Origin: Patescibacteria group bacterium
GTDB taxonomy: Bacteria; Patescibacteriota; Patescibacteriia; Patescibacteriales; GWC2-42-12
Direction of reading: 5' to 3'
NCBI GenBank assembly: GCA_028703305.1
Contig: JAQVNC010000011.1
Span: 1 to 36,110, forward strand
DNA: 36,110 nucleotides
Positions 5,965 through 12,905 of this stretch are shown here, one piece after another. The notes beneath the pieces were generated by a model. That model saw only the letters and a program-made list of their open reading frames with translations. It was not told the DNA's origin and ran no database searches. Position 1 is the first letter of the stretch. Every line of letters starts with the position of its first letter. Position numbers and translations under genes: made by a program.

Positions 5965-5975
5965 ATTGTGTTATC

Positions 5976-6068
5976 TGTCATTGCGAGCGACCAAGGGAAG
6001 CGAAGCAATCTCACGTACTCGGATTTTAACCGGAGATTGCTTCGTCGCTTACGCTCCTCGCAATGACA
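5976..6068. repeat. Palindromic element, family A copy 2 (intergenic)
   Basis: Same outer arms (TGTCATTGCGAG/CTCGCAATGACA) and inner GAAGCAATCTC/GAGATTGCTTC arms as 3702-3794, and the same total length of 93 bp. It fills most of the 110-nt gap between the GT4 and GT2 genes, 11 nt upstream of the GT2 start, so any RNA hairpin would sit in the GT2 leader. Confidence 0.88.
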
Positions 6069-6074
6069 ATAAAA

Positions 6075-11339: not shown

Positions 11340-11891
11340 TTAAACTCTCCTTGGTTTTTTAGGCCGGCAACCGTTGTGCGGTATGGGCGTAATATCTTTA
11401 ATTGAAGTAATAATCAAGCCATTGGCGTTTAAAGCCCTAATCGCCGATTCGCGTCCGGTGCCGACGCCTTTTACCATCACGCTAACTTCGTTTAAGCCGT
11501 ATTCTTTGGCTTTTTCCACCGCGATTCTGGTAATTATCTGGGCGGCGTATGGAGTGGATTTTTTCGGCCCTTTAAAACCAGCCATGCCGGCCGAAGACCA
11601 AGACAGGACGTTGCCGCTTAAATCGGTTAAGGCCACAATGGTGTTATTGTAAGTCGCTTTAACATGAGCGACGCCTACCGGGACTCTTTTATCGGTTTTC
11701 TTTTTGCGCCCTTTTTTCTTGTTGGTTTTTCTGTCTTCTTTGCTTTTTTCCAGTTTTTTTCTGATTTCTTCAGGTAATTCTTCAACCATATTCAAAGGAT
11801 TGCCAGTCTTAATAATCGGCTCGTCCATTTCAGCCGCGGTTGGAATTTTTTCTTCTTTGATTTCTACGTCTTGTTTTTTTTCTTCCGTCAT
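11340..11891 (-). CDS. rpsK: 30S ribosomal protein S11 (uS11) with a charged N-terminal extension
   Basis: From about residue 67 the protein is a standard S11: [59 protein letters not shown] and the C-terminal [15 protein letters not shown]. Residues 1-66 are extra. This stretch is rich in Glu and Lys, contains [20 protein letters not shown] and ends in a basic run [11 protein letters not shown]. Usual length is ~129; this is 183. The extension reads in frame from a good ATG with no internal Met directly before the core, so it looks genuine. A structured inverted-repeat element occupies the gap upstream of it. Confidence 0.95.
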
Positions 11892-11898
11892 ATTTTAT

Positions 11899-12022
11899 TA
11901 TCAAGTAAAAATTTAATGGCCGTAGAGTTTTACTCGCTATTAAATTTTTACTTGATACCTTATATTTTTTGTTTATCCCTTTAGGGTAAAGTATTGAAAA
12001 CTTTTTCTAAAAAAGTTTTCAA
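11899..12022. repeat. Structured inverted-repeat element, left copy (rpsM-rpsK gap)
   Basis: Two hairpins. The first has perfect 19-bp arms (11899-11917 and 11939-11957) around a 21-nt loop reading GGCCGTAGAG, five bases, CTCGCT. The second is a perfect 13-bp AT-rich stem (11994-12006 and 12010-12022) with a 3-nt loop that touches the rpsM stop. A copy in opposite orientation lies at 12556-12661. Confidence 0.8.
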
Positions 12023-12025
12023 AGG

Positions 12026-12418
12026 TTATGTTTTTTGAGCCGCCGGTTTTTTGCCCGATGTGGCGGTTTTTCTAATATTGCCGCGAACCGTTCGGTTATT
12101 GGTTTTAGTGCGCTGGCCCCTGACCGGCAAGCCTTTGGCATGCCTTGAGCCGCGGTAGCTGCCTATTTCTTTTAATCTTTTTATATTGGCGAAAACATCG
12201 CGTTTTAAGTCGCCTTCAACCTTATTCTGCTTTTCAATCAAGTTTCTTAGCTTATTGGCTTGCTCGTCGTCTAAATCTTTAACTCTGGTATTAGGATTAA
12301 TTTTAGCCAACTTTAAAATGGCTTGGGATTTCGGTTTGCCAATGCCATAAATATAAGTTAAAGCGATTTCAACTCTTTTTTCATTTGGTATGGTTACGCC
12401 AGCGATTCTTATTGCCAT
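12026..12418 (-). CDS. rpsM: 30S ribosomal protein S13 (uS13)
   Basis: This 130-residue protein shows the S13 opening [20 protein letters not shown], the [15 protein letters not shown] helix-two-turn-helix, and the C-terminal [25 protein letters not shown], which enters the decoding-site side of the 30S head. It follows rpmJ by 19 nt. Both rpmJ and rpsM lie between two mirror-image hairpin elements. Confidence 0.97.
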
Positions 12419-12437
12419 AGATTAGTTATAAAGTTAT

Positions 12438-12551
12438 TTAGCCTTGCCTTTGCTTATGTTTTGGAGTTTTACAAATAACGCACACGCGGCCGTTGCGCCT
12501 GATTATTTTACAATCTTTACAAATTTTTTTTACGCTGCTTCTTACTTTCAT
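12438..12551 (-). CDS. rpmJ: 50S ribosomal protein L36 (bL36)
   Basis: A 37-residue reading frame from ATG 12551 to TAA 12438 translates as [20 protein letters not shown] followed by [17 protein letters not shown], the signature of L36. Zinc ligands C11, C14, C27 and H32 are all present, so this is the metal-binding form. It sits in the conserved infA-rpmJ-rpsM order. The 5' leader up to the ATG is formed by the right-hand hairpin element. Confidence 0.96.
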
Positions 12552-12555
12552 AAGT

Positions 12556-12661
12556 CTTTAACAACTTTTTTAGAAAAAGTTTTTACTATTTTCAAAAATA
12601 TAATGTATTAAATTAAATTTTATAGCGAGCAGAGCTCTACGGCCATAAAATTTAATTTAAT
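12556..12661. repeat. Structured inverted-repeat element, right copy (infA-rpmJ gap)
   Basis: The AT-rich hairpin near 12562-12582 shares a 21-nt stretch with the left copy. It is followed by a perfect 17-bp stem (12607-12623 and 12645-12661) around a 21-nt loop. Read on the minus strand, the loop is GGCCGTAGAG, five bases, CTCGCT, differing from the left copy by three transitions. The stem sequences differ between the copies. Orientation is opposite to 11899-12022. Confidence 0.8.
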
Positions 12662-12662
12662 G

Positions 12663-12905
12663 TTAAAGCCTGTAGGTTATGCGGCCCTTGGTTAAATCAT
12701 AAGGACTGATCTGCACCCTTACCCTGTCTCCCGGGAGCAGCCTTATTTTATTCATTCTCATTTTACCGGAAAGGTGCGTTAAAATTTCATGGCCATTTTC
12801 CAAAACGACCTTAAAGCTGGCGGCCGGCATCAATTCTATAACTTCGCCCTGCATTTCAATAAAATCCTTGGAACTGATAATTTTGTTATTTTGTTCTGCC
12901 ATCAA
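12663..12905 (-). CDS. infA: Translation initiation factor IF-1
   Basis: This small OB-fold protein of about 80 residues binds the A site of the 30S subunit during initiation. Seen: [48 protein letters not shown] and [12 protein letters not shown], all typical of IF-1. Two consecutive ATG codons open the frame; the second (MAEQNN, 79 residues) is the more usual start. It is the first gene of the nine-gene operon, with a consensus promoter and an ~80-nt hairpin-bearing leader. Confidence 0.97.

Follow-up and report, generated by a model that had tools for sequence, protein, structure and literature searches.

Integron attC sites combine conserved outer boxes (GTTRRRY/RYYYAAC) with a variable centre, and palindromic elements derived from IS200/IS605 have hairpins near both ends, asymmetric stem bases and a strand bias. 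REP and REPIN sequences, which go with TnpA-REP (RAYT) transposases, are short intergenic palindromes marked by a GTAG motif and by an asymmetry, either a bulge or a mismatch (PMC3733652, PMC8266576, PMC12306157). Known REPs are recognized strand-specifically as single strands, and in E. coli they are often found just past stop codons, where ribosomes were stalled if the REP lay within 15 nt (Liang 2015, in the summary given by PMC12306157). The pneumococcal BOX, RUP, and SPRITE repeats are partly modular, hairpin-forming, non-coding intergenic sequences of ~100 bp, present in tens of copies and interpreted as mobile (PMC3049150).

Here we describe F1, a new repeat family of a broad known kind, the short interspersed palindromic repeats, whose covarying hairpins carry a conserved asymmetric cap and which has been inserted lineage-specifically, in a fixed orientation and anchored at stop codons. 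We consider F1 to be, with fair probability, a non-autonomous, REP/BOX-like mobile palindromic repeat that is read as a folded single strand and leaves post-stop hairpins in operon mRNAs.

Two copies of a composite element in a ribosomal operon

The window, by which we mean the whole stretch of 36,110 nucleotides that was analyzed, has a ribosomal operon of the alpha/spc type on its minus strand, with infA, rpmJ, rpsM, rpsK, rpsD, rpoA, rplQ, and rplM. Two copies of one composite unit, mutually inverted and 531-667 nt apart, are located in this operon, the left one at the rpsM-rpsK junction (11896..12032, plus strand, 99.1 bits, E 5.6e-16) and the right one at the infA-rpmJ junction (12548..12665, minus strand, 99.2 bits, E 5.0e-16); the scores are those of covariance model R1, which was built from 30 F1 copies, a training set that includes the right copy and to which both are related. 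The left copy has the common orientation, antisense to its flanking genes, whereas the right copy belongs to the three that are reversed. On the minus strand, rpsK (uS11, 11340..11891) lies downstream of the left element and infA (IF-1, 12663..12902) upstream of the right element; these two genes and rpsM (uS13, 12026..12418) were assigned with NCBIfam, and rpmJ (bL36, 12438..12551) from its translation and its conservation in relatives.

The F1 unit is ~105-155 bp long and consists of hairpin A, a TATATTTTTT linker, and hairpin B, in that order. In hairpin A, an AT-rich stem 17-19 bp long carries the cap GGC-[CGTA bulge]-GRGY-TYT-RCYC-GCT. In the left copy (11899..11957, plus strand, from sequence and fold), perfect 19-bp arms at 11899-11917/11939-11957 surround the cap GGC-CGTA-GAGT-TTT-ACTC-GCT (11918..11938), and in the right copy (12607..12661, minus strand), perfect 17-bp arms at 12607-12623/12645-12661 surround the cap at 12624-12644. 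The first-pass annotation had reported these stems, each enclosing a 21-nt GGCCGTAGAGNNNNNCTCGCT with three transitions between the copies, as well as the inversion of the whole elements and a second AT-rich hairpin with a 21-nt stretch common to both (AAAACTTTTTCTAAAAAAGTT; 11994-12022 and within 12556-12586), and all of this is present. The 21 nt, which it described as a loop, are indeed a conserved core, but they are folded and not open: GGC pairs with GCT, with a G.T wobble among the pairs, and within lie the CGTA bulge and a 4-bp hairpin with a 3-nt loop, GAGT-TTT-ACTC in one window copy and GAGC-TCT-GCTC in the other. Two of the three transitions form one compensatory pair, GAGT/ACTC vs GAGC/GCTC.

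The left linker, CCTTATATTTTTTG or in gene sense CAAAAAATATAAGG (11958..11971, plus strand), is conserved in the alignment of copies, and between it and hairpin B is a nested mini-hairpin insert, TTTATCCCTTTAGGGTAAA (11972..11990, plus strand), which several other copies have in the linker or in hairpin B. Left hairpin B (11994..12022, plus strand) has 13-bp arms and a 3-nt loop, with the rpsM stop codon 3 nt away. On the minus strand, the right linker is at 12593..12606 and right hairpin B, an inverted repeat at 12556..12586, adjoins the rpmJ start codon (12551).

The G.T pair of the cap is found in 58 of 62 distinct F1 copies, though the remaining stem is nearly perfect. The inner hairpin has been swapped wholesale in L101 (CCCCGCAAATTGCGGGG), L097, and L102, with GGCCGTA and GCY kept, and the outer arms in relatives read GTTCGGT/ACCGAAC or GTTCCAT/ATGGAAC in place of ATCAAGT/ACTTGAT. 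In the copy alignment the ends are unrelated (ATCAAGT at the A-end, CTTTRAAAAC at the B-end), with no terminal inverted repeats, and a pattern search of 371 kb of the genome found no solitary hairpin A or B. Mini-hairpin inserts of the form TTTATC-CCC..GGG-AAA are nested in the linker or hairpin B at L001, L002, L006, L019, L023, L024, L043, and L046, and F1 copies of the congener G003 have GCCCCGCAAAT(T)GCGGGG modules.

Copy number and distribution

The core pattern, with at most one mismatch, has 23 matches in the genome and its reversed control has none. The covariance model finds 27 full copies spread over many contigs; most of its weaker hits in this genome are these palindromes picked up again on the opposite strand. 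Given that copies occur genome-wide, we rejected a function specific to the ribosomal operon. The first-pass annotation had allowed that the likeness of the two window copies might be accidental, with the loop occurring nowhere else and the stems not conserved as pairs; both points were checked and the finding held up.

In the order, the model detects F1 in 16 of 111 genomes, our genome and 15 others with 1-8 copies each, and does not find it in the other 95. Beyond the order there is one matching genome among 381 drawn from the class. A search for the exact core in 84,980 GTDB species placed it essentially in Patescibacteria alone; the matches in Marinobacterium, Fibrobacteria, and two Bacteroidales have no paired arms and look like chance. 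IMG/VR viral contigs gave no match, and neither did Rfam at the gathering threshold, with chance-level matches only when the threshold was relaxed. In the open-access literature we found no description of a palindromic repeat family for Patescibacteria. In G022 (L091:1300-2100), F1 units and extra copies of hairpin B form a tandem array interleaved with tRNA genes.

Pairing, covariation and strand asymmetry

Among 30 F1 copies, standard pairs fill 95.6% of pair cells, compared with 88.3% after shuffling, and every slid register drops to 40-61% paired. Both sides have changed at 19 of 38 pairs (7.9 expected from shuffling), which bears out the earlier proposal that structure is kept while stem sequence drifts. 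Template-switching repair within a hairpin could also keep the arms complementary, so covariation alone is no proof of selection. The same repair would erase asymmetric features, and for this reason the G.T pair and CGTA bulge of the cap are probably the recognized part.

The two strands are not equivalent. With either RNA or DNA parameters, the GGCC strand, which carries the GGC-CGTA of the cap, folds more stably than the complementary strand in 23 of the 27 copies. Wobble cells outside the cap favor the same strand (~24 G.T vs 8 A.C), which is modest evidence, given the relatedness of the copies and an alignment that had been fitted to the GGCC strand. Of the two, it is the mRNA strand that folds less well, and its cap contains an A-C mismatch. 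The asymmetry and strand specificity of the cap suggest that F1 is recognized as a folded single strand, by analogy with REP/TnpA-REP and IS200/IS605 (PMC8266576).

Placement at operon junctions

Gene context was determined with a simple ORF-based gene caller in ~371 kb around F1 copies. For 24 of the 27 copies (24:3), the genes on either side have the opposite sense to the GGCC strand, and 26-27 of the 27 lie at co-directional junctions, compared with 81% of all junctions. In the common orientation, the mRNA runs from the stop codon through hairpin B, the linker, and hairpin A to the next start. In most of these copies hairpin B starts 0-10 nt past the upstream stop codon or contains it, and the distance from hairpin A to the next start varies from ~5 to >100 nt; the anchor of F1 is the stop codon. 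The exceptions in orientation are the right window copy, C37:3035, and C37:17164, the latter two lying on opposite strands within 20 kb of C37. In relatives the rule is mostly obeyed, and this includes copies in what appears to be the 23S-5S rRNA spacer of four genomes (L094, L096, L086, and L097; rRNA assigned by eye). GC skew mostly follows gene direction, so transcription and replication are not separable here as the reference for orientation. Replication strand is at most a possible sole cause of the orientation, being confounded with gene direction in most regions, with the two reversed C37 copies on opposite strands. Both the orientation and the co-directional preference are stronger than in typical parasitic repeats, and F1 could have a role for the host.

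At L161:14091-14500 we noted a copy directly 3' of a T-box-like leader (GGGTGGAACCGCGGG plus a terminator, by eye; Rfam is silent at its gathering threshold), ahead of a 1782-nt ORF.

Empty sites and age of the copies

Most of the F1 sites that we checked are empty in congeners. The spacer between infA and rpmJ is 111 nt in the window, compared with 1 nt in congener G003, 10 nt in G002, and 2 nt in family member G007, and at rplW-rplB and rpsC-rplP congeners lack F1 and have 2-45 nt in its place. At rpsC-rplP, F1 was apparently inserted just 5' of the original stop codon and supplied a new one (CTTTAA), as have about seven copies. The empty sites hold no sequence like the F1 arms, so an origin of the arms from target DNA was rejected. 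No target duplication could be demonstrated at these sites, where flanking intergenic DNA is too diverged. The first-pass annotation had listed a structured mobile element among its possible meanings, and the 27 scattered copies, the clean empty sites in congeners, and the preserved stem pairing support this.

Five pairs of copies share a junction with another species or genus (for example L167:9939/L036, L161:7782/L080, and L164:17164/L141), which implies that movement is slow or old. One of these is a reversed copy, kept at the same junction in two genera.

Interpretation

The same observations admit an alternative in which F1 is a selected RNA element, a pair of intercistronic hairpins for mRNA processing, stabilization, or translation control that is kept at operon junctions and spread by recombination, not parasitism. 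The orientation, the excess of co-directional sites, and the tight stop-codon distance are consistent with such an element, as are the copies seen by eye in the 23S-5S spacer of four genomes and the orthologous copies that keep their stems paired, such as those of the ATCAAG/CTTGAT type beside ATCGAG/CTCGAT in L080. However, with most checked sites empty in congeners no given gene needs F1, carriers are a small minority of the order, it is the mRNA strand that folds worse and has the A-C mismatch, the orientation is reversed in three copies (including one at a junction shared by two genera), and Rfam has no match. We therefore regard a selected RNA element as rather unlikely.

Much less probable is F1 as a portable promoter whose transcripts have a hairpin leader at the 5' end; AAAAAATATAATGTATC, read in gene sense, would serve as the -10 box, and transcripts would begin with hairpin A. 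A TATAAN box does lie a few nt 5' of hairpin A on the gene-sense strand, L100 and L102 retain only this box and hairpin A ahead of an ATG, and a similar box occurs alone upstream of a gene at L168:9790. Against this, the hexamer is not conserved at its sixth position (T, G, C, or A), whereas ordinary upstream regions here show TATAAT, sometimes with TTGACA, and neither window element has a -35 or promoter-like match. An intrinsic terminator, with its GC-rich stem and T-run, was also rejected, as both window elements lack a T-run and a terminator-like match.

The suggestion in the first-pass annotation that the window copies are a matched pair of sites inverting or insulating rpmJ-rpsM fits their mutual inversion and short separation but is highly improbable, because the order infA-rpmJ-rpsM-rpsK is unchanged in those relatives for which we compared gene coordinates, the 25 other copies are at unrelated junctions, and the left copy is in the usual and the right copy merely in the minority orientation. 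Congeners lack both copies and yet have the genes in the same order, and elsewhere F1 is found beside unrelated genes; that two copies bracket rpmJ-rpsM is thus a coincidence.

We return to the non-autonomous mobile repeat, the reading to which the lineage-specific, patchy, and dispersed copies and the nested mini-hairpins point. F1 would have spread through the lineage as such an element, settling at gene ends within operons. An enzyme may use the asymmetric cap to recognize the GGCC strand when this is folded as single-stranded DNA, which would leave the stem sequence free to drift provided that pairing holds. In a transcript, hairpins B and A would lie between a stop codon close by and the next gene, a position from which they might affect operon mRNA stability or translation as E. 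coli REPs do. Strand-specific insertion, selection acting on the transcript, or the two together would account for the fixed orientation.

Our search for a mobilizing enzyme found none. The Y1 transposase (PF01797) was not found in the F1 carriers G010 (98% complete, 8 copies), G012, G042, and G050, and in G000 it has a single weak match at a contig edge, with flanks that carry another palindrome. We rejected a RAYT/REP system as the mobilizer because the Y1 transposase does not track with F1 and was not found in several carriers. In L047 (G000:C15:249-467), a Y1 (RAYT-like) transposase ORF has AGCGGTCGGACCGCT-type palindromes in its coding frame, apparently inserted in frame, and in its flank.

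Other repeat families

At least two other families in the genome share the design of a conserved core with freely varying complementary arms. F2 consists of CTACTGCGGAACTCG, a variable hairpin, and CTCAAACAGTCCTCGCACG, with outer arms that differ in most copies yet are complementary; it is present at L152:15587-15700 and in 10 more copies in ~371 kb, with 23 exact cores genome-wide, and the copies examined are gene-sense. F5 (GCTTAGAYGAAATT..ACAATTTCATATGCGCGATAAAA) has long, copy-specific complementary outer arms (L152:19153, L158:1417, L160:10521, and L164:1978). An intergenic palindrome in the window at 5965-6074, GTCATTGCGAGGAGCG..GAAGCAATCTC, belongs to a family found in further spacers of the genome.

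A strong inverted repeat is present in 29% of 129 co-directional spacers of 50-350 nt and in none of the shuffled spacers, a share that describes regions chosen for holding F1 and should not be extended to the whole genome. In 26 of these 38 spacers the repeat is F1 or F2. The rpsH-rplF junction has F2 in our genome and unrelated palindromes in G001 and G003. Congeners also have unrelated long palindromes (L214, L215, and L106) at rpsH-rplF and rpsM-rpsK, where our genome has F1 or F2. It is conceivable, though we hold it only tentatively, that F1, F2, and F5 represent a general class in these Patescibacteria that is recognized as a single strand, with only a small asymmetric cap read and every helix interchangeable and free in sequence, and that a given operon junction is occupied by different members of the class in different species, making post-stop hairpins a recurrent operon feature that is convergently replaced.

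Comparison with known systems

F1 is short, non-coding, dispersed, and absent from the corresponding sites of relatives, as MITEs are, but it lacks their terminal inverted repeats. Relative to attC sites it is built the opposite way, with a conserved centre and variable outer arms. Elements derived from IS200/IS605 (recognition: PMC8266576) share with F1 the hairpins near both ends, the asymmetric stem bases, and the strand bias; in contrast, F1 is not associated with a Y1 transposase and its end hairpins are unlike each other. BOX, RUP, and SPRITE are enriched at convergent junctions with a weak strand bias (~61-63% leading strand; PMC3049150), whereas F1 is almost always co-directional and strongly oriented. 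Terminal inverted repeats, which F1 lacks, are present in BOX and RUP, as are target duplications, which could not be demonstrated between the diverged flanks of F1.

The likeness to REPs is in the palindromes, the asymmetric cap, and the GTAG motif, which nearly all F1 copies have. However, a REP is one hairpin of 20-40 bp and F1 is two unlike hairpins; the GTAG (or CGTC) tag of REPs is unpaired and marks the foot of their palindrome, and the GTAG of F1 is inside the cap, enclosed by the outer stem. F1 stems also drift freely, and no Y1 transposase was found in the carriers G010 and G012. In the position that matters for function F1 is REP-like: most copies in the common orientation begin 0-10 nt past the stop codon or contain it, within the ~15 nt that applies to REP-like hairpins, and ribosome stalling similar to that at E. 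coli REPs is plausible. F1 makes it testable what moves such repeats without a REP transposase, and whether post-stop hairpins tune operons in streamlined genomes. Within this broad kind of repeat, F1 is unusual in the strictness of its placement, by orientation, stop codon, and co-directional junction, and in a recognition core that is separable from its stems.
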